Part shown: one piece after another, positions 26,640-64,000 of the stretch
How the letters are laid out: each line of letters opens with the position of its first letter
Numbering within the stretch: the first letter of the stretch is position 1
Source: Lachnospiraceae bacterium
Lineage (GTDB): Bacteria; Bacillota; Clostridia; Lachnospirales; Lachnospiraceae
Length of the DNA stretch: 64,000 bases
Assembly: GCA_910574715.1 (NCBI GenBank)
Contig: CAJTCH010000012.1
Span: 1 to 64,000 of the forward strand
Direction: 5' to 3'
Program-made: the position numbers and the translations under genes
Notes under the pieces: model-generated
The model's database searches: none
Told to the model about the DNA's origin: nothing
The model's input: the letters and a program-made list of their open reading frames with translations, nothing else

Positions 26640-26894
26640 AGGCAGAGTCTGATGTCCGAAGGCACTGCTGTTCCTCCTTTCAGCCGGCTTAGTCCGAGAC
26701 TGCTTCGATAGCATTCAGCCTGGCACATACGGCATATTCCGCTGACACAGAATTTTCATCCCCAGCCGTTAGCCCCAGCAAGAAAGGCTGACTGGGTGCA
26801 TGCTCATTGCGCGAGGTTTCGGTCACCGTATGCAGCACAGGATAACCCTTTTGCTTCAGGCTTCACAAATCCCGATCAGAACGGAGGTGATATC
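26640..26894 (+). ncRNA. Candidate IS110 bridge RNA
   Basis: The leader of the IS110 transposase is non-coding and hairpin-rich, for example CCCAG..AGCC/GGCT..CTGGG at 26761-26795. In IS110 elements, this place encodes the bridge (seek) RNA that pairs with donor and target DNA. The two target loops cannot be assigned by eye. Confidence 0.45.
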
Positions 26895-28196
26895 ATGTTA
26901 AAGATCAACTATATGTCCACCTTGTTTGTAGGTATTGATGTAAGCTCAAAGACCAATGCTGTCTATGCGATGGACTTTGAGGAAAACAAATACATCTCAT
27001 CATCGTTTGGCAATAATCAGCCGGGTGCCGATCAGCTTGTGGATATGATTGCGGAGTGTATGCAGAAGCATCAAAACCTGGATACCCTTCTTATCGTGCT
27101 GGAATCCACTTCTGTGTACAGCGTGCATATTTCCAACTTCCTGTCGACCAGTGAGGTTCTCATGCCCTACAAGCCTTACGTCTTCTGTGTGAATCCAAAG
27201 GCCACTTCCAATTACCGAAAGTCCTATATTGGAATGGAAAAGACCGATCCCACAGATGCATATCTTATTGCAGACTTTGGCAGGGTAGGCCGTACGAAAA
27301 AACTGGAGCCATGGCGCGGCGGGCAGTTCATAGCCCTGAAACGCCTTACAAGGCACCGTATGCACCTTTCTGAGTGCATCACCAGGGAGAAGACTTATAT
27401 GGTGTCTAATCTTTATCTGAAGTTTAGTGAGCTTCAGCTCCTTGAAGGTGATGATAAGCCTTTTGGCAGCCTCTATGGCGCCACGTCCTCAGCTGTCCTG
27501 ACAGAATTTCTGTCACCACAGGAGATCATTGATATGCCGGAAGAGGATCTGCTTGCTTTCCTTGCGGAAAAGAGCAGGAACCGCATCTCTGACATATCAA
27601 AAACTTCCGAACTTCTGCGGAAGGCAGCCAGGGATTCCTACCGGTTAGACAAGTGCATGTACGAACCACTGAACATATCACTGGCAAGCTCGTTTAACTG
27701 CATCCACGCCTATCAGAAAGAGATCAGGCTGATAGAGCAGGCGATTGGGAAATGCATCAACGGAATGAACCCTAATGCCCTGATCATCCTCAGATCCATA
27801 CCTGGAATAGGTCCGGTATGGGCATCCGGGATCCTGTCAGAAATAGGCGATATAACAGCATTTCATTCGTCCGATGCCCTTGCCAAATATGCCGGGCTTT
27901 ACTGGCCTAAAGGTGATTCCGGAAATTTCACTTCTGAGGACAACAACATGTCGAAAGCCGGAAATCCTTATCTTCGCTACTATCTTGGCGAAGCGGCAAA
28001 CAGCGTCAGGAAGCACATCCCTGAATATGCTGATTTCTATGCCAGAAAATATGCTGAGGTAACCAGACATCAGCACAAAAGAGCACTCGCGCTTACATCT
28101 CGTAAATTTGTACGACTCGTTTTTGGATTGCTGGTCAAAAACCAACTGTACACCGGCGAAAAGCTGGACACCGAATATAATACCGAGTCGAACTGA
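26895..28196 (+). CDS. IS110-family transposase
   Basis: 433 residues from the ATG at 26895 (GGAGGTGA four bases before). RuvC-like DEDD part: FVGIDVSSKTNAVYAM, LIVLESTSVYS, and KTDPTDAYLIADF. C-terminal Transposase_20 part: RSIPGIGPVWASGILSEIGD, KYAGLYWPKGDSGNF and KAGNPYLRYYL with the serine region. The gene appears intact. It is not the same element as the one at the right window edge. Confidence 0.95.
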   Translation: MLKINYMSTLFVGIDVSSKTNAVYAMDFEENKYISSSFGNNQPGADQLVDMIAECMQKHQNLDTLLIVLESTSVYSVHISNFLSTSEVLMPYKPYVFCVNPKATSNYRKSYIGMEKTDPTDAYLIADFGRVGRTKKLEPWRGGQFIALKRLTRHRMHLSECITREKTYMVSNLYLKFSELQLLEGDDKPFGSLYGATSSAVLTEFLSPQEIIDMPEEDLLAFLAEKSRNRISDISKTSELLRKAARDSYRLDKCMYEPLNISLASSFNCIHAYQKEIRLIEQAIGKCINGMNPNALIILRSIPGIGPVWASGILSEIGDITAFHSSDALAKYAGLYWPKGDSGNFTSEDNNMSKAGNPYLRYYLGEAANSVRKHIPEYADFYARKYAEVTRHQHKRALALTSRKFVRLVFGLLVKNQLYTGEKLDTEYNTESN

Positions 28197-28323
28197 CATT
28201 CGGTTTTTCGTAAAATATACCGAAGGTCTGTTAAAGTTACCCTTTTTTCTGAAAAACATATCAAAATCTTTTTAAAAAAGTTCTTGACATATCACCAGAA
28301 TGCTATTAAAGAAATGAGTGATC

Positions 28324-30026
28324 TCGGAAACTCTTTAAAGCCTATATTTCCGCTTTTTTTGTTTGTCTTTTTATATCTTCCTCCATGCTCCGGAGAAAAA
28401 CATCATAAAATTTATCAAATACTATTGACATATAACCCCAAACGCGCCCCCTTGTAGTCAGAAAGCGTTTGTGCCCCACGCACAGCATAATAACTACAAG
28501 GAGGTACACTTCGATACTGATAAGGTCATGGAGTTCCTCCTGCTCTTTTACTCCAACACCGGCAGACATACTAAGAACCAGCCGCAAATCTTAAGGTCTT
28601 TTATCCTTTTCTTTCTTCTATATTCAGAAGGTTTGGCCAAGCCATCCCTCACCCTTTGGGTCGACAGGTTCTCAAATGACCGCCTCCTTGCCAGCCTCAT
28701 CGGCTGTGTGCAGGATTCCCTTCCCCCGCTTGGCTCTTACTTTGATTTCATAGACAGGCTCTGGACTGCTCCGGCAACGGACTTATACGCCCAGGATAAA
28801 CTGCTTCCCGCTTCCCGAAACAGAAAAAAGCCTGTTAAGCCGAAAGGGAAAAAACAGAAAGCCCAGGAAACAAAGCCCAAAATCACTGAATTTATCGAAA
28901 AACGGCTTATGACCGGGAATGATATCCCTTTTAACTTTGAAGAGCGCCTGCAGCGCTTCTTCTATCATGTGGCCGTCTTGCCTTCCATGGAAGGCGGCTC
29001 CATACCAAAAGAACACCTTACCATTTCCGGCGACGGCATCGCCGTACATACCCACGCCTGCCCATATGGACATCACAGGGATGGTGCGCCGGAAAACCTA
29101 CGGCATTTTTCCGATACGGATGCTTCGTGGGGGTGGGACAGCGACATGGAAAAATATTATTTCGGCTACTCTATGTTTCAGTTATCCTGTTATAACAAGG
29201 AACTCAGGGCAGACATCCCGCTTCTCCTGCGGTTTACCAGCGCAAGGCGGCATGATTCGGTCAGCTTCCTTGTCGCTTTCCATGAACTGGAAAAACATAT
29301 GCCGGCAGTTTTCGCCACGAACATGTGCCTGGACTCTGCAATGGATAATTACCCCTCTTACTGGCTCCTTAAAAACAGGGGAATACGGGCGTTCATCGAC
29401 CTCAACGACAAATGCGGCCGCCCAAAAACAATTCCTGATACCATCACCATTGACAAGGATGGAACTCCCCTATGCCAAGAAAAACTGCGCATGAAGCCTA
29501 ATGGCTATGACCGTTCCAGCGGTTCCTCATGCGGCGCTGCCCTTATGGAAAAGAACACTGTTCCAAATGTAAAAACAGCTGTACGGATTCCAAATATGGG
29601 AGGATCGTCAAAACCAGGCCCGAATGGGATATCCGCCTTTACACCGATGTTCCCCGCGGCACAGATGCTTATAAGAAGATTTATAACCAACGCACCACCA
29701 CGGAACATATCAACAACCGCATCCTCAATGATTACGGCCTGCACCGTATGTTCATACACACAAAGAAGCATTATTCTTTCAGGACAACCATGATTGGCGT
29801 CTACATCCATCTGGATGCCCGCTATAAACAGCAGATACAGGCAGTGACATAAGTTATGTTTCCTACTTCGGGATTCTTTCCAGCCTGTTTTCCGGCAGGC
29901 TTAAAAGCCATGCCCGTTTTTATTCTTTATGCTCTCTAAACCGCTTAGGTTCCACAATTATCCAGTCCTTATCCTGCTCATTTTTGAAAATGAACCCTTT
30001 CTGCCTATTTGCTATTGAGTTTCCGA
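28324..30026 (+). mobile_element. DDE insertion sequence with 10-bp ends
   Basis: TCGGAAACTC at 28324-28333 and GAGTTTCCGA at 30017-30026 are perfect 10-bp inverted repeats that enclose one transposase gene (1.7 kb). The transposase is frameshifted, so the copy is probably inactive. A stem AGCCTG/CAGGCT after the gene (about 29881-29901) may be its terminator. I did not find a clear target duplication. Confidence 0.6.
28471..29852 (+). pseudogene. IS4/IS1182-like DDE transposase, frameshifted
   Basis: About 445 codons in two frames. The first (28471-about 29520) has a Lys/Pro-rich hinge, LTISGDGIAVHTHACPYG with the first catalytic Asp, and CLDSAMDNYPSYWLL with the second. The frame then changes near 29510-29550; the second part (to 29852) reads PYGKEHCSKCKNSC, then RTTTEHINNRILNDYGL with the catalytic Glu. 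Both parts are needed for activity. The start is uncertain: GTG at 28471 or ATG at 28528. The exact IS family is not certain. Confidence 0.75.
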
Positions 30027-30207
30027 AACCGCTCGTAATGAACAAGCCGATTCCGAATGGAGCACCAAGTGTGCTGTAAGTATAACATATATTGAAGATT
30101 AATGATAGTGGATTATTATGATATGGCTGGATTCAAAGAGATGCAGACGATATAGAGTTCTGAATAATATGAGAATTTTTATAAGAAACAGATAAAAAAT
30201 TGTTGCG

Positions 30208-30361
30208 AAAAAGTGTAGTTTTTCGTGATAATTCATATGGAAAATTTTTTATGCAAATATAATAAAAAAAGAGGATTAAGTTTATTGACTTATTGTCGAT
30301 AGTATATTAGAATCGTTAAGAATTTGTAGCAGGTTTTCCATTACGAAAAACTACACTTTTT
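30208..30361. repeat. Promoter cassette between 19-bp inverted repeats (copy 1)
   Basis: Arms AAAAAGTGTAGTTTTTCGT (30208-30226) and ACGAAAAACTACACTTTTT (30343-30361) are perfect inverted repeats around 116 AT-rich bases containing a rightward promoter. A second, diverged copy in inverted orientation lies at 62621-62784. Either a small non-autonomous transposable element or an invertible promoter; no recombinase gene is adjacent. Confidence 0.7.
30285..30313 (+). promoter_or_regulatory. Promoter inside the repeat cassette
   Basis: TTGACT (30285-30290), 17-base spacer, TAGAAT (30308-30313). It points at the TnpB-like gene 190 bases on. The spacer holds TTGTCGAT, one base from a Spo0A box, which may be chance. 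Confidence 0.65.
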
Positions 30362-30506
30362 GATAATGGGTTTTCGGTAAAAGAATCCCGTATTTACTGG
30401 CTTTGTAAGTGCTATAAGGGACAGTGAATTGTGTCAGTTTTGGATGTATCGGCTATAAATTCCAGGTTTCCAGAGATATTTTAAGCGAGATCTTTCAGAT
30501 GAGGGA

Positions 30507-31826
30507 ATGAAGATGCCGCCAGACAAGATATGTAAGACCGTTCATCAATACAATAAAGAGCCGATTCCGGATGAGGAGATGCAAAAGCTTCTGGATATTG
30601 CGGAGGACTACCGGAAGGTTAAGAACTACGTGTATGTCCGGTTCGGCGGGATTGGAAGTCTCTCCAAGATCTATCCGGGGTATACTGTGCAGAATGAGAT
30701 GACAGCAAGCGGCTACCGAGAGACCTTGGGAATGCCGGCGGTTTATTTCTATCTGGCAGTCTTTGATGCGCTGGGAGATATCAAGAGCCAGTGGACAAGG
30801 ACAAAATCTAAGCTTGTGAGGCTGGTCAACAAGAATGAAAGCTTTACAGAAGAAGAAAAGCATTATCTTCGTTTCCTATTAAAAGTTAGTAATGCTTTTG
30901 AGGCAGTATTGAATCAGAGAACGGTTGAGTTAACGGCAAAGGTTGACAGACAATACCGTGAGCTGGCTGAACAGGTAGATACAGAACAGCTGCATAGATA
31001 TCTGTGCAGGCAGGTGAGGAAATATCTTGTGAAGCTCCATACGGATGCAGCAGATGTGTTTTCTATAGCAGAGCGGGCATATCGTTATGCAGATCATGGA
31101 ATCTACATTTCCATTAAAGAGAAACGTAAACGAGTATTCATTCCATTGACAGATAACAACCAGTACAAATGCCAGCTGCGGATTAAACTGTATTCCAAGG
31201 AGAACCGTGTTGAGATTAAGGTTCCGGTAAATGTTGCCGTTCGAAGTCATGTTGATTATCAGAAGCAGGTAGGGGTGGCAGTTGGTTTCTATACGATGTT
31301 GACGACAGATGAAGGGCATCAATATGGAGAAGAATTAGGCAGATATCAGTCGGCATATTCAGAATGGATATGGGAACAGACCAACAGCTACCGGAGAAAT
31401 AAAAAGGATAATCCAGGGCGTAAGAAATATGCCGCAAAGAAGCGTCGATTGGAAGAAGGGCTTCACAGCTATATAAACCATGAACTGAATCAATTTCTGG
31501 CAAAGGAGAAGCCTAAGACAATTTATATTGCGAAACTTCCCAAACCAAAGGCGGGTGGATATAACAAGAAGATTAATTATTCGGTTGCCCAGTGGCAGAG
31601 AGGATACATCAGGAAACGATTGATGCAGAAATGTAAAGAACAGGCCGTCGAGGTTGTGGAAGTAATTGGTAAGGATATCAGCAAAGAGTGCAGTAAGTGC
31701 GGGGAAACCGGGACGAAGGCAGAAGGAATGTTCCATTGTCCGGTCTGCGGATATCTGGAAGCGGAGAAGACCAATACTGCCCGTAATGTGAAGAAACGGG
31801 GGCAGGGGGACGGGATATTGTATTGA
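30507..31826 (+). CDS. Nuclease-dead TnpB-like protein (TldR-like)
   Basis: 439 residues, the size of TnpB. The RuvC-like C-terminal half is recognisable: strand 1 reads VGVAVGFYT (255-263) where TnpB has VGxDxG, so Ala258 replaces the first catalytic Asp; strand 2 reads TIYIAKL (338-344) where TnpB has the Glu of IxIEDL, so Ala342 replaces it; the last motif reads AEKTNTARN (419-427) where TnpB has DRDxNAAxN, so Lys421 replaces the final Asp. The zinc ribbon is intact (C395, C398, C411, C414). Loss of all three acids with an intact fold is what defines RNA-guided, non-cutting TldR repressors. No TnpA gene accompanies it. The gene is undisrupted and sits directly before the glycan locus. Confidence 0.75.
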   Translation: MKMPPDKICKTVHQYNKEPIPDEEMQKLLDIAEDYRKVKNYVYVRFGGIGSLSKIYPGYTVQNEMTASGYRETLGMPAVYFYLAVFDALGDIKSQWTRTKSKLVRLVNKNESFTEEEKHYLRFLLKVSNAFEAVLNQRTVELTAKVDRQYRELAEQVDTEQLHRYLCRQVRKYLVKLHTDAADVFSIAERAYRYADHGIYISIKEKRKRVFIPLTDNNQYKCQLRIKLYSKENRVEIKVPVNVAVRSHVDYQKQVGVAVGFYTMLTTDEGHQYGEELGRYQSAYSEWIWEQTNSYRRNKKDNPGRKKYAAKKRRLEEGLHSYINHELNQFLAKEKPKTIYIAKLPKPKAGGYNKKINYSVAQWQRGYIRKRLMQKCKEQAVEVVEVIGKDISKECSKCGETGTKAEGMFHCPVCGYLEAEKTNTARNVKKRGQGDGILY

Positions 31827-32250
31827 ACAGATATATGTGCTAAAAAGCAGGTGGTTAATCTGGCAGAAAAATCAGTCATAAGAACAGCCATTTAGATAAG
31901 CACTGGCGATGAGCCAGGGTTTCACCGTTGTGGACTGTTGAGGATCATGGAAAATTCTGAATGGTTTCAGGGACTAAGAGGTGCGTTCATGATAAGGCAG
32001 GTGTGATGCCTGTTATATAAAATAATTTACGGCATTAGAAGGCAGATAAAAAGAGATCCACTTTATATATCTGCGTATTGGGTATGCCAAGACCTTGTGA
32101 ACATGTGGGATTGCGTTGATATGCAGGCGGTCATCATTCTTCGATGGTGACGAGTCATGACGTAGCAGGGAGCGAAGCGGATAAATCTGCATCATCTTTT
32201 TAAAGATGACCAATATGCCTTATTAAAATTGGAAGAGTGCTGAGGAATAT
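31827..32250 (+). ncRNA. Hairpin-rich non-coding stretch, candidate guide RNA
   Basis: No gene in about 550 bases between the TnpB-like stop and the DegT start. Several stems are visible: CTGGC/GCCAG near 31905, GCAGATA/TATCTGC near 32042-32074, GTCATCAT/ATGGTGAC near 32130 and CATCTTT/AAAGATG near 32196. TnpB and TldR guide RNAs are encoded right after the protein gene, so this is where one should be. The limits and any guide cannot be fixed by eye. Confidence 0.35.
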
Positions 32251-32297
32251 AAAATAGTAGGAGAAATATAAAGTTTATGTATTTTATTATATTAATT

Positions 32298-32337
32298 GCG
32301 AGGGGGAGGAGATATGCAGAGTAACTCCTCGCTTTCT
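32298..32337 (+). terminator. Terminator-like hairpin in the leader of the glycan operon
   Basis: GCGAGG...AGGAG (32298-32311) pairs with CTCCTCGC (32325-32332), then TTTCTT follows. It lies 40 bases before the first gene, so it could act as an attenuator rather than end the previous transcript. A nine-codon frame starting ATGCAGAGTAAC lies inside the loop and right arm, with GGGGGAGGAG before it. Confidence 0.4.
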
Positions 32338-32378
32338 TGATTAAAGATGAAAGAAATTATATGAGAAGGAAATGCAGT

Positions 32379-33485
32379 ATGGATAATCAAAAGATTTTTG
32401 TAACACGGTCTTCGATGCCACCTTACGAAGAATACATAGAAGCCATAAAGCCGTTATGGGACAGTCATTGGATCACAAATATGGGACAGTATCATCAGGA
32501 ACTGGAACAGAAATTGAAGGATTATCTGGATGTGCAGCAAATTTCCCTGATGGTAAATGGTCATATGGCATTGGAGCTTACAATCCAGGCAATGGGATTC
32601 CCAAAAGGTGCAGAGGTGATCACAACACCATTTACTTTTATTTCCACGACACATGCAATTGTGCGAAACCATTTGAAACCTGTGTTTTGCGATGTAAAGC
32701 CATCAGACGGGACTATAGATGAGACAAAGCTAGAGGGATTGATAACGGAACGTACTGTAGCGGTTGTACCGGTACATGTATATGGAAATGTGTGCAATGT
32801 AGAAGAAATTGAGAGAATTGCAGATAAGTATAACCTGAAGGTCATCTATGATGCGGCACATGCATTTGGTGTGACTTACAAAGGGAAAGGGATTGGCAGT
32901 TATGGGGATGCTTCAGTGTTTAGTTTTCATGCAACGAAAGTGTTCAATACGATAGAGGGAGGGGCGGCGGTCTTTTCTGGACAGTGGTTATATGATAAAT
33001 TATATAATCTGAAAAATTTTGGAATCCGTAATGAAGAATTGGTGTCAGAGGTAGGAGCCAATGCGAAGATGAATGAGTTCTGTGCGATTATGGGACTGTG
33101 CAACCTGATCCATGTAGGAGAAGCTATCGGGCATAGGAAGGCGTTGGCACGAGAATATGAAGAACGGCTTAAGGATGTGCATGGAATCAGGATGTTTGAG
33201 AAAAAGACGGATGCGGAGAGCAATTATGGGTATTTTCCGATTTTGGTTGAAGAGGAGTACCCGCTGAGCCGGGATGGGTTATATGAACGAATGAAGAAGA
33301 AAGGGATATATGTGAGGAAATATTTTTATCCGTTGACAGCGGATCAGAGATGTTTTGAGAATAGATTTGAGAGAACAAAATTGGATTGTGCAAGGGAATT
33401 GGCGGAAAAGGTGTTGGTGTTACCTTTGTATGAATCATTAAGTATACAAGAGATAAAAAGAAGCACAGAAATTATAGAAGGGTGA
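32379..33485 (+). CDS. DegT/DnrJ/EryC1/StrS-family aminotransferase
   Basis: 368 residues. PLP enzyme that aminates a keto-sugar nucleotide. YDAAHAFG (Asp158) binds the pyridine nitrogen and Lys187 in FSFHATKVFNTIEGGA forms the Schiff base; ITTPFTFISTTHAI and MNEFCAIMGL are family blocks. Start ATG 32379 has AAGGA eight bases before; a longer TTG form is less likely. It opens the glycan locus and should make an amino sugar, together with one of the SDR/epimerase genes downstream. Confidence 0.9.
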   Translation: MDNQKIFVTRSSMPPYEEYIEAIKPLWDSHWITNMGQYHQELEQKLKDYLDVQQISLMVNGHMALELTIQAMGFPKGAEVITTPFTFISTTHAIVRNHLKPVFCDVKPSDGTIDETKLEGLITERTVAVVPVHVYGNVCNVEEIERIADKYNLKVIYDAAHAFGVTYKGKGIGSYGDASVFSFHATKVFNTIEGGAAVFSGQWLYDKLYNLKNFGIRNEELVSEVGANAKMNEFCAIMGLCNLIHVGEAIGHRKALAREYEERLKDVHGIRMFEKKTDAESNYGYFPILVEEEYPLSRDGLYERMKKKGIYVRKYFYPLTADQRCFENRFERTKLDCARELAEKVLVLPLYESLSIQEIKRSTEIIEG

Positions 33486-33553
33486 TTTGGTTATCATAAG
33501 TGTAGAAAATATAATGGATTGAAATCAGAATATGTAAGAAATAGAGGGATATA

Positions 33554-34663
33554 GTGGATTATAGAGATATGAAATTAAAAATAGATAATAAAGGTACAAA
33601 CAGTGATGAAAATATAATTATTGAATTGAAAAAGAGCAATCGGCCAATTTTAATATATGGGAACGCAAACCATGCAGAACTTGTCTGGGAATATTTAAAA
33701 TCACATGAAATTGTAATAGAAGCATTTATTGTAGATTGTCAATATTTTAATAAAAATCAATATATTAAATCGGTTCCTGTAAAAAATATCGAGGATTATA
33801 TGCCCGAAATTGAAAAATATAATATTGTTATAGGTTTTTGTAATGTAGATAGAAGCAAATGTTTATTGAACAATATGGAGTTGTTAAGAACTAGATTTTA
33901 CTTGTTATGGGAACCATATGTGGCATATGAATGGAATAGGGAGTATATTGAGGAAAATTATGATGCATTAGAAAGCGTCTATGAGAGTTTGAGTGATGTA
34001 CATTCGAAGAAAATTTTTAATGAATTAATTAATGCAAAGTTAAATAAATCTGGTAGAAAAATGTTGGAATTGGCAGATGGAAAACAATATTTTAATGAAC
34101 TGACATTTTGTGTAAATTCGAAGGAAGAGGTTTTTGTAGATTGTGGAGCTTTTGATGGAGATACTGTTAAGCAATATGCTTCATTTACAGGCGGTGTATA
34201 TAAAAAAATTTTTGCATTTGAACCCAATTTAGATAATGTTGCAAAACTTGAAGAAAATGTGAAGCATTTGCCGAATGTGAAAATTGTAAATAAGGGTACT
34301 TGGAAGGAAAAAGGAGAACTGGAATTTGAAGAAAAAGGAAGCGCTTCGCAAATTATAAAAAAAGGAAAAGTAAAAATTCCGGTGACAACAATTGATGAAG
34401 TTGTAGGAGAAGAAAAAGTTACTTTTATTAAGATGGATGTAGAAGGCAGTGAGCTGGAATCTCTGGAAGGTGCAAAAATGACAATTCAAAAAAATATGCC
34501 CAAGCTTGCAATATGCTGTTATCATAAGAAGAATGATATTATAAATTTGTATCGTTTTATAAAACGGTTTGATAGTAGCGATTTAAAATACCAGTTGTAT
34601 TTGAGACATCATTCCAACAGTGCATATGAAACAGTATTATATGCAATTCCGGTGAAAGTATGA
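33554..34663 (+). CDS. FkbM-family methyltransferase with N-terminal Rossmann-like domain (1)
   Basis: 369 residues. Residues about 27-100 form the small Rossmann-like module shared across this locus (RPILIYGNANHAELVWEYL, then IVIGFC). Residues about 190-365 are an FkbM SAM methyltransferase: VFVDCGAFDGDTV (SAM site), FAFEPNLDNVAKL, and FIKMDVEGSELESLEGA. FkbM enzymes O-methylate sugars or other small groups. GTG start with GAGGGA six bases before. The first of four FkbM genes here. Confidence 0.85.
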   Translation: MDYRDMKLKIDNKGTNSDENIIIELKKSNRPILIYGNANHAELVWEYLKSHEIVIEAFIVDCQYFNKNQYIKSVPVKNIEDYMPEIEKYNIVIGFCNVDRSKCLLNNMELLRTRFYLLWEPYVAYEWNREYIEENYDALESVYESLSDVHSKKIFNELINAKLNKSGRKMLELADGKQYFNELTFCVNSKEEVFVDCGAFDGDTVKQYASFTGGVYKKIFAFEPNLDNVAKLEENVKHLPNVKIVNKGTWKEKGELEFEEKGSASQIIKKGKVKIPVTTIDEVVGEEKVTFIKMDVEGSELESLEGAKMTIQKNMPKLAICCYHKKNDIINLYRFIKRFDSSDLKYQLYLRHHSNSAYETVLYAIPVKV

Positions 34664-62620: not shown

Positions 62621-62784
62621 CCATTACGAAAATGTGTAGGTTTTCGTAATGGGAGATCTGCTGTAAATTCTTAACCATTCTAAATATACTATCGACAATA
62701 AGTCAATAAACTTAATCCCCTTTTTTTATTATATTTGCATAAAAAATTTTCTATATGAATTATTACGAAAAACTACGACTTTAG
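62621..62784. repeat. Inverted, diverged copy 2 of the promoter cassette
   Basis: Reverse complement aligns with 30208-30371 over about 160 bases with most positions identical (the run from ATGCAAATATAATAAAAAAA to TTGACTTATTGTCGATAGTA is shared). The outer arm at 62621-62652 is a hairpin, CCATTACGAAAA/TTTTCGTAATGG with an 8-base loop. A minus-strand promoter-like TTGACT-18-TAGAAT is kept at 62677-62706. Confidence 0.8.
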
Positions 62785-62939: not shown

Positions 62940-64000
62940 CTATTGTGGAAGGGAAGCCAAATATTCTTTGACTCTTCCGTAATAAATCCGGAGAAATTTA
63001 TTTGCCCCGGCTGTCATGTAGACATAGTAAGCTTTGCCTTGCGCACGTTTCTTATCCATGAACAAATACACGGGGTCATCTTGTGGCTTGGTCTTAATTA
63101 GAACGTCCATGACCTGAAATAGGGTCTTACGGAGCGCGGGAGAACCATGTTTTGATGCATGGACACTTTTTTGAGAGTAATCCCCGGATTCATTTACACC
63201 TGGGTCAACACCGGCAAATGCGGTAATAGCGTTCCGATGGGTAAAGCGTGACACATCTCCGATTTCCGCTATTAGCTGTGGACCCAAGGAGGGGCCTACG
63301 CCTTTCATCGCCATAACGACAGAGTATTCTGGAAGTTGGGCTGCGGTTTCGTTCATTAGGGAACGGAGCTGTTCAACAGTTCGGGATGCAGTATTTAACT
63401 GCTCAACCGCCTGTTTGATGATACGTTTGGTAAAGACATCTTTTGGAAGTACAGAAACCAGTTCCTGGGCTGTTTCATAGATTTCTTCAGCTTTTGTTTT
63501 GCTGAAGTTGTACTTCTTGCGGTGACACCACTTCTGATAGTGGTCAACAAAAGCGTCCACAGATATCTTACGGACACAGTCTGCATGCCAGTAGCAGTCC
63601 GCAAAGTCAACCCATTTCTGGCTTCCGTCTTCGCGGGCGGGGCTGTTAAAATAGGTGTTTACACCGGGATAAGTTTGGTCAAGAAGGCCGATCAGATTGT
63701 TTTTCATGGCAGTCTTGTGCTTCATGTAGAAGCCAAACTGGCGGTTCATGGTCTTTAATTGATTGCGTAATTCATCCATAAGACCATATTGTTTCAATTT
63801 TGACCATCTGTCAAGTGTATAGCGTGCGATTTTAAGGGAATCTGCTTTGTCGGACTTTACTTTCCGCAGGGAGTTGTCTTCGTCCTGATAATGACGTATA
63901 AGCTGTGGATTTACAGCGCTAACAAACAGACCGGCAGAGACAAGCTCATGGGCAATGGTCTCATAGTAATGTCCGGTACACTCCATGACGATACGTGATT
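62940..64000 (-). CDS. IS110-family transposase (N-terminus outside window)
   Basis: 353 residues visible, entering from the right edge (reading SRIVMECTGHYYE at its start). It has MECTGHYYE, VKSDKADSLKIARY (DxxDA-type) and the C-terminal GVGPSLGPQLIAEIGD, FAGVDPGVNESGDYSQKS and HGSPALRKTL. It differs clearly from the IS110 at 26895, so the two do not form a composite transposon. Ends LASLPQ and a TAG stop. Confidence 0.95.
   Translation of the reverse strand, partial: SRIVMECTGHYYETIAHELVSAGLFVSAVNPQLIRHYQDEDNSLRKVKSDKADSLKIARYTLDRWSKLKQYGLMDELRNQLKTMNRQFGFYMKHKTAMKNNLIGLLDQTYPGVNTYFNSPAREDGSQKWVDFADCYWHADCVRKISVDAFVDHYQKWCHRKKYNFSKTKAEEIYETAQELVSVLPKDVFTKRIIKQAVEQLNTASRTVEQLRSLMNETAAQLPEYSVVMAMKGVGPSLGPQLIAEIGDVSRFTHRNAITAFAGVDPGVNESGDYSQKSVHASKHGSPALRKTLFQVMDVLIKTKPQDDPVYLFMDKKRAQGKAYYVYMTAGANKFLRIYYGRVKEYLASLPQ

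Follow-up and report, generated by a model that had tools for sequence, protein, structure and literature searches.

The window, by which we mean the whole 64,000-nucleotide stretch of Lachnospiraceae DNA analyzed here, carries an intact gene for a nuclease-dead TnpB homologue (dTnpB) placed between an invertible promoter and a structured RNA, ahead of a surface-glycan gene cluster. The features and their coordinates are listed in Table 1. Pfam searches of the cluster identified a DegT aminotransferase, FkbM methyltransferases, ATP-grasp, SDR and radical SAM proteins, GT2, GT8 and GT-D members, an epimerase, two RgpF proteins and a group 1 glycosyltransferase. Neither csrA nor fliC lies beside the window gene, and the single csrA of this genome is on contig C54. 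Upstream of the cassette, positions 26796-29852 hold a transposase of the IS110 type and the remains of another that resembles IS1182; this broken one had no Pfam match and was named by eye. Next to the solitary promoter copy at the far end, which may once have headed a neighbouring cassette now lost, lies an IS110 transposase (62940-63986, minus strand).

Table 1. Features of the cassette and its surroundings in the window
Feature	Coordinates	Strand	Basis or remark
Left inverted-repeat arm of the invertible promoter (AAAAAGTGTAGTTTTTCGT)	30208-30226	.	Repeat search
Sigma-70-type promoter, TTGACT-17-TAGAAT, within the invertible segment	30285-30313	+	Faces the gene (ON)
Right inverted-repeat arm (ACGAAAAACTACACTTTTT)	30343-30361	.	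Repeat search
Nuclease-dead TnpB homologue (dTnpB)	30507-31826	+	Intact ORF, 439 aa; Ala258, Ala342, Lys421
Structured RNA scaffold, candidate guide RNA, ending ...GATGACCAAT	31880-32214	+	Covariation; 5' end uncertain
Candidate guide ATGCCTTATT, possibly longer at the 3' end	32215-32224	+	Family motif RTRYYTTATT
Candidate target site: GTTTAT (TAM-like) followed by GTATTTTATT	32273-32288	+	Leader of the glycan operon
Surface-glycan gene cluster	32337-61279	+	Pfam on 18 proteins, a subset of the ORFs
Stand-alone further copy of the invertible promoter in reversed orientation	62622-62779	-	At the cluster's far end, next to an IS110 transposase

The dTnpB protein and its family

The original prediction, made from the letters of the window, had described an undisrupted TnpB-like gene of 439 residues in which all three RuvC catalytic acids are replaced. 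The reading frame is intact, and the residues at the RuvC-I, -II and -III acid positions are A, A and K. The protein matched the Pfam family Cas12f1-like_TNB (E 2.4e-8) and also NCBIfam guided_TnpB, the latter under the model's cut-off. When the dTnpB family profile was compared with PDB chains, ISDra2 TnpB (8bf8) aligned over profile positions 253-428 (E 0.0026) and Cas12f (9nzq) aligned at the C terminus (E 4.6e-9). Together with the Pfam match, these alignments place A/A/K in the RuvC acid columns, and the predicted replacement of the acids was thus confirmed. The AlphaFold2 model had a mean pLDDT of 84.4; its best structural match was Cas12f 8j12 (TM 0.53/0.55), and the TnpB-omegaRNA-DNA complex 8h1j came at rank 9 (TM 0.59 by query and 0.69 by target). 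Structure prediction and alignment to TnpB, which were among the checks that the prediction had proposed, agree on a TnpB/Cas12f fold with replaced residues in the acid columns. By Pfam match, PDB profile alignment and structural match, the protein has the TnpB homology and fold of a TldR. A search of phage and plasmid collections returned only distant TnpBs at 21-27% identity, apart from two short C-terminal matches at 29% and 38.5%.

Two further elements of the prediction stood. The four zinc cysteines (Cys395, Cys398, Cys411 and Cys414) are retained in 52-53 of the 53 readable family stretches, and no TnpA accompanies the gene: the 12 Y1_Tnp matches in the window's genome all fall on contigs other than those of its three cassettes. 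The dTnpB protein has the fold and the C-terminal zinc ribbon in common with IS200/IS605 TnpB and Cas12f (8h1j, 8bf8, 9nzq and 8j12) but, unlike them, is without catalytic acids and TnpA and is not a transposon.

The window's genome (G000) holds three copies, those on contigs C38 and C36 being 84% and 75% identical to the window copy. A scan of genome contigs recovered 23 dTnpB loci, 16 of them labelled Lachnospiraceae. The protein was present in 9 of the 299 Lachnospiraceae genomes surveyed, and the downstream RNA in 13 of 397, a sample that overlaps the 299 used for the protein. In 57 aligned stretches, with fragments of broken genes counted separately, the RuvC-I column read A in 35 and S in 17 (5 gaps), the RuvC-II column V in 25, P in 19, A in 7 and I in 1 (5 gaps), and the RuvC-III column K in 49 and R in 4 (4 gaps). 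Accordingly, no acid was seen at the three columns in the 52, 52 and 53 stretches readable there, nor wherever the columns were readable in the 26-row protein alignment A1. Searching 60 family genomes with profile A1 (E<=1e-6) returned dTnpB family members only and no acid-bearing close relative. The original prediction had named homologues with restored acids as one finding that would count against it, and none occurred among the 52-53 readable stretches. The catalytic acids are lost throughout the family, as they are in TldRs, and their absence from every readable family stretch shows that this was no recent chance loss. For seven of eight dTnpB pairs, dN/dS was 0.045-0.113, with dS above 1 in five of the seven, so that those five values are rough; the eighth pair gave no value. 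These low ratios point to purifying selection on dTnpB.

What follows the cassettes is for the most part surface or glycan genes. The first three downstream ORFs at 57 loci included 22 small single-span proteins and 20 secreted proteins, and representatives of both gave no Pfam family above the cut-off. Some family members have other neighbours. At G312:C22 (L022) and G313:C1 (L023), whose proteins are 60% and 58% identical to the window dTnpB, the genes immediately upstream are those for CsrA and flagellin; at G057:C9, csrA lies 2.4 kb upstream; and at L026 a flagellin gene lies upstream. The family is associated with non-transposon genes (surface and glycan operons, csrA and flagellin at some loci), and the three cassette contigs of the window's genome are free of TnpA, as is typical of TldRs. 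The adjacent csrA and fliC that mark the CsrA-associated TldR clade are found at G312:C22 and G313:C1 but not in the window. These two loci and G057:C9 make it probable that the window family is that clade or a neighbour of it, the published proteins having been compared by description.

The downstream RNA, its candidate guide and candidate target sites

In TnpB systems the guide RNA is encoded at the 3' side of the gene. At this position in the dTnpB family, an RNA consensus built from 30 sequences (alignment A2, 30 of the 34 extracted stretches) contains 48 base pairs, 30 of which show compensatory changes. The covariance model R1 matched the window at 32139-32229 and found 57 copies in 21 genomes, which were picked for carrying the family, at one to seven per genome. 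Upstream of the RNA lay an intact dTnpB in 49 copies, a broken or cut one in 5, and none in 3, all in G283. A covarying candidate guide RNA gene adjacent to dTnpB, as in TldRs, is thus the usual arrangement. The single-sequence fold of the window RNA was of modest stability (z -1.9), and Rfam gave zero matches at E<=1 over 28000-34000.

The RNA ends in ...GATGACCAAT followed by a near-constant 10-nucleotide stretch, RTRYYTTATT. Guide composition was read from 52 of the 57 copies, five unreadable or mis-set ones being left out. Positions 2 and 6-10 were identical in 50-52 of the 52 guides, and positions 1, 3, 4 and 5 varied, nearly always by transitions. A reading of the RNA-end motif as a small ORF (MTNMPY...) was set aside, as its ATG is not conserved. 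In G283, one dTnpB (G283:C30, L027/L045) has no detected guide RNA and a candidate target site 65 nt past its stop codon, and guide RNAs occur with no detected dTnpB at L101 and L134 (G283:C52); the cassette parts of this genome may act in trans.

At the candidate target site of the window the motif recurs, this time after GTWTAT in place of the scaffold, on the same strand and in the leader of the next operon; the site differs from the window's own guide at 4 of 10 positions. Of 54 guides, 17 have a site with a score of at least 16 in the 400 nt that come after them, at distances of 26-202 nt, and 0.46% of shuffles exceeded a score of 14; the other 37 guides had no following candidate site. 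Exact matches to GTWTAT plus RTRYYTTATT numbered 21 in 10 genomes, against 9 for a reversed-pattern control, and since this control count is not small, the weight of the exact motif rests on position over number. Nine of the 21 follow a guide RNA, and one follows the G283:C30 dTnpB without an RNA. Six others, which have no cassette nearby, stand in leaders inside surface-protein or glycan operons made up of the same families of genes (G111:C39, G301:C5:56882, G303:C51, G273:C50, which has two, and G273:C88). Two look unrelated, and the last three fall inside one recurrent reading frame of glycan loci, on codons for VYIPY (G273:C50:1106, G301:C5:52782 and G302:C32). We regard these three as a coding coincidence, because related genes carry synonymous variants of the motif. 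The candidate sites are on the coding strand; 20 of the 21 lie 26-217 nt upstream of the following ORF and the remaining one 740 nt upstream, and one glycan operon of G273 contains two of them. No promoter signal above that of shuffles was detected at the candidate sites.

To see which guides fit which sites, we compared 21 sites at 17 loci with guides over 10 nt. The guides of L117, L145, L142, L143 and L144 were re-read from sequence and, like the G283:C30 site and the six orphan sites, entered by hand. No guide matched its own site exactly (0 of 21), and exact fits were found for 8 of 68 pairs of a site with a sibling guide of the same genome (three in G283, three in G304, one each in G299 and G301) and for 46 of 1,165 pairs with a guide from another genome. 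Permuting guides within genomes showed an excess of mismatch between guides and their own sites (P 0.002, strict pairing), and sibling fits were more frequent than other-genome fits (P 0.008); the pairs are not independent, with three near-identical G304 guides supplying three of the eight sibling fits. The sibling excess persisted without G283:C30 (7 of 64, P 0.016). On the other hand, counting the six cassette-free sites brought sibling fits to 8 of 84 versus 62 of 1,491 (P 0.03), the difference between own and sibling exact fits gave P 0.10, own exact fits were no rarer than other-genome fits (P 1), and permutation over all genomes gave P 0.11 for mean mismatch and P 0.39 for the lack of an exact fit. 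Once G-T wobble was allowed, a fit was seen for 4 of the 21 own pairs and the contrast in own fits disappeared (P 0.37), but the mean own mismatch still differed (P 0.00075). The six cassette-free sites formed no exact pair with guides of their own genome (0 of 16), the nearest being one mismatch away. Likewise, the window's genome had no exact sibling fit; the nearest was the window guide on the C38 site, with 1 mismatch in 10. Exact guide-site pairs were found in four genomes in all, and most guides are without an assigned site.

The upstream switch

Upstream of dTnpB, 19-bp inverted repeats flank the promoter and bound a segment of about 110 bp. Taken over the stretch as a whole, promoter-like sites were not in excess of shuffles, and the weight of the window promoter therefore comes from its conservation inside the repeats. 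In the sibling cassette on C38, the segment is reversed, with 96% identity in reversed and 55% in the same orientation, and the gene-side flank is direct, at 92% identity to the window. The segment thus has the marks of a promoter inverton, namely, repeats around a promoter and, between loci (window versus C38), both orientations. A resemblance of the inverton's -35 region to the guide failed a by-eye check in other loci.

The switch was surveyed at the 48 loci where the start of dTnpB is present and no less than 300 nt of sequence precedes it. It was clear in 38 and weak in 4, and neither an inverted-repeat promoter nor a tyrosine recombinase was found upstream at the other 6. The inverted-repeat score was at least 17 at 25 loci, a level reached by none of 960 shuffles and by one of 225 other sequence stretches; these 25 include L119 and L138, whose arms of 130-156 nt are likely assembly artefacts around N. 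Scores of 13-16 were seen at 4 loci, and 13 of 960 shuffles reached 13. At L138 (G000:C36) and L119 (G302:C56), N and a duplicated inverted flank stand at the switch, an effect that an assembler may produce if the sample holds both orientations.

At 13 of the 48 loci, a tyrosine recombinase gene lies directly upstream in place of the promoter switch. In 12 of these it stands between inverted repeats of 27-39 nt, 1.35-1.51 kb apart, which were seen without a shuffle control; the upstream stretch of the thirteenth is short. The gene is on the plus strand at 10 loci and on the minus strand at 3. One of them, L036, was identified by Pfam and the other 12 by similarity to it. This second switch class includes loci of G273:C51, G301:C13 and G300:C4 (L213-L225), with both orientations among the loci. 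In addition, a small serine recombinase adjoins the switch at 3 of 51 RNA-set loci (L093, L100 and L129), and in the window's genome two serine recombinase genes, both on other contigs, have the repeat core of the switch next to them.

Orientation was assessed at the 21 loci with a clear promoter, defined as TTGAnn-17/18-TA(G/A)AAT only; automatic ON calls for L118 and L123 were weak hexamer matches and were excluded. The promoter faces away from the gene (OFF) at 19 loci and toward it (ON) at 2, the window (C12) and C36, both of the window's genome. All four clear promoters of G304 face away from the gene, so that a state with one locus ON is not demonstrated by these assemblies.

Proposed regulation, rival readings and related systems

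A dead fold, a covarying RNA, a motif common to guide and site, a promoter reversed in a sibling and an association with operons are present in the DNA itself. On these grounds we consider it likely that the cassette encodes a phase-variable TldR-type regulator, probably one that silences sibling surface loci. A site-specific recombinase, presumably, would invert the promoter segment and so switch dTnpB, its RNA and, via read-through, the surface-glycan operon together; the window assembly would represent the ON state. The protein, which has kept an RNA- and DNA-binding fold and lost the cutting acids, would form a complex with the structured RNA of 31880-32224, bind the leaders of surface operons through the guide of about 10 nt beside GTWTAT and block transcription there. 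An ON locus would thereby produce its own surface product along with dTnpB and the guide RNA while other surface loci are silenced, in a form of mutual exclusion. That the alternative loci would be the ones silenced is suggested by guides that lack an exact match in their own leader and sometimes match that of a sibling.

More tentatively, the system might perform RNA-guided allelic exclusion, with the guide of the ON locus deciding which other surface coats are shut off. The four two-state guide positions (R1, R3, Y4 and Y5 of RTRYYTTATT) would then form a seed "address," missing from the locus's own leader and present in sibling surface operons. They fall within nucleotides 1-6 of the guide, which are the required seed of a studied TldR (PMC13418256).

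The original prediction had proposed an RNA-guided repressor of the adjoining glycan locus or of a homologous one; the inverton, the RNA and the target site were not part of it. We infer that the window protein binds RNA and represses; the covarying RNA with its guide-like 3' end favors this proposal, as do the TAM-like and guide motifs in the leaders of adjoining and homologous operons. The csrA- and flagellin-linked members also count for the TldR reading, since they recall an arrangement for which RNA-guided DNA targeting has been published (PMC13418256).

Two other uses of the same parts were considered. The complex could act on the leader site of its own operon, tolerating G-T wobble and requiring no network between loci. 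The sites do lie on the same strand shortly past their own guides (26-202 nt), wobble accommodates 4 of the 21 own pairs, and own exact fits were no rarer than fits of guides from other genomes. Nevertheless, we judge such autorepression unlikely: no own pair was exact, own mismatch exceeded that of within-genome shuffling under both strict and wobble pairing, and six motif sites stand at operons free of a cassette. Mismatch at the own site also speaks against a positive factor, an antiterminator or activator in the manner of UpxY or RfaH that would engage at the leader and allow RNA polymerase to pass. Such a factor would be expected to fit best at its own leader, and the opposite was seen; moreover, no NusG-like gene was found among the neighbours scanned with Pfam. 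It could account for coding-strand sites that precede the ORF by 26-217 nt in 20 of 21 cases and show no promoter signal, for the two sites within one G273 glycan operon and for the sigma-70-type gene found upstream of cassette L021, yet we hold it to be quite improbable.

A relic of an IS605-type element that rides along with invertible surface loci, its end motif being a conserved insertion site, would explain why the guide-like ends are near-identical throughout, as site-specific insertion would give, and it would suit the IS110 and other transposase remnants close by in the window. Purifying selection on dTnpB, compensatory changes in the RNA, acids lost throughout the family and copies of the motif at cassette-free operons all disagree with a relic, and we give this explanation very little credence.

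The proposed silencing of sibling loci by a phase-variable TldR has close published counterparts. In PMC13418256, CsrA-associated TldRs of gut Clostridia (Oscillibacter, Flavonifractor) are described behind hin and a promoter inversion of about 120 bp, with several loci per genome and predicted cross-targeting; they control flagellin, and fliC reading frames are targeted. A nuclease-dead TnpB, an adjacent guide RNA, several loci and an upstream inversion are common to these systems and the window family. The described systems act on flagellin, whereas the window cassette and most family loci examined stand ahead of surface-glycan or surface-protein operons; unlike those systems as described, the window family has a near-constant guide and, as another class of switch, a repeat-flanked tyrosine recombinase gene. 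The same source describes a FliC-associated TldR of Enterobacter, a TnpB-derived RNA-guided repressor that requires seed nucleotides 1-6, is prophage encoded and targets host flagellin. In Bacteroides (PMC7315117), an invertible promoter precedes the regulator genes UpxY and UpxZ at the head of a polysaccharide operon, and one such operon-head regulator represses non-adjacent operons, UpxZ being a protein inhibitor of UpxY antiterminators. The logic resembles that of the window family, where specificity would come from a guide RNA. The parallel is functional only: the window regulator has a TnpB fold and is neither a NusG-like UpxY nor a UpxZ.

For flagellin, then, TldRs that stand behind invertible promoters and cross-target one another's loci are already in print (PMC13418256). 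In the literature searched, outside of which fell the founding TldR paper and a 2023 TnpB survey, we found no description of a TldR at surface-glycan loci, and the regulation described for flagellin appears here to extend to surface-sugar loci. Invertible promoters and RNA-guided transcription factors would then meet, beyond flagellin, at the surface-glycan loci of common gut bacteria, and this would give a testable account of how the alternative surface coats of Lachnospiraceae might be coordinated. The family would also be a natural case of regulation by a short guide, of about 10 nt, with a small address code. Two cassettes of G302 (L016 and L017) carry the guide ATATCGGTTAT, which lies outside the RTRYYTTATT motif.
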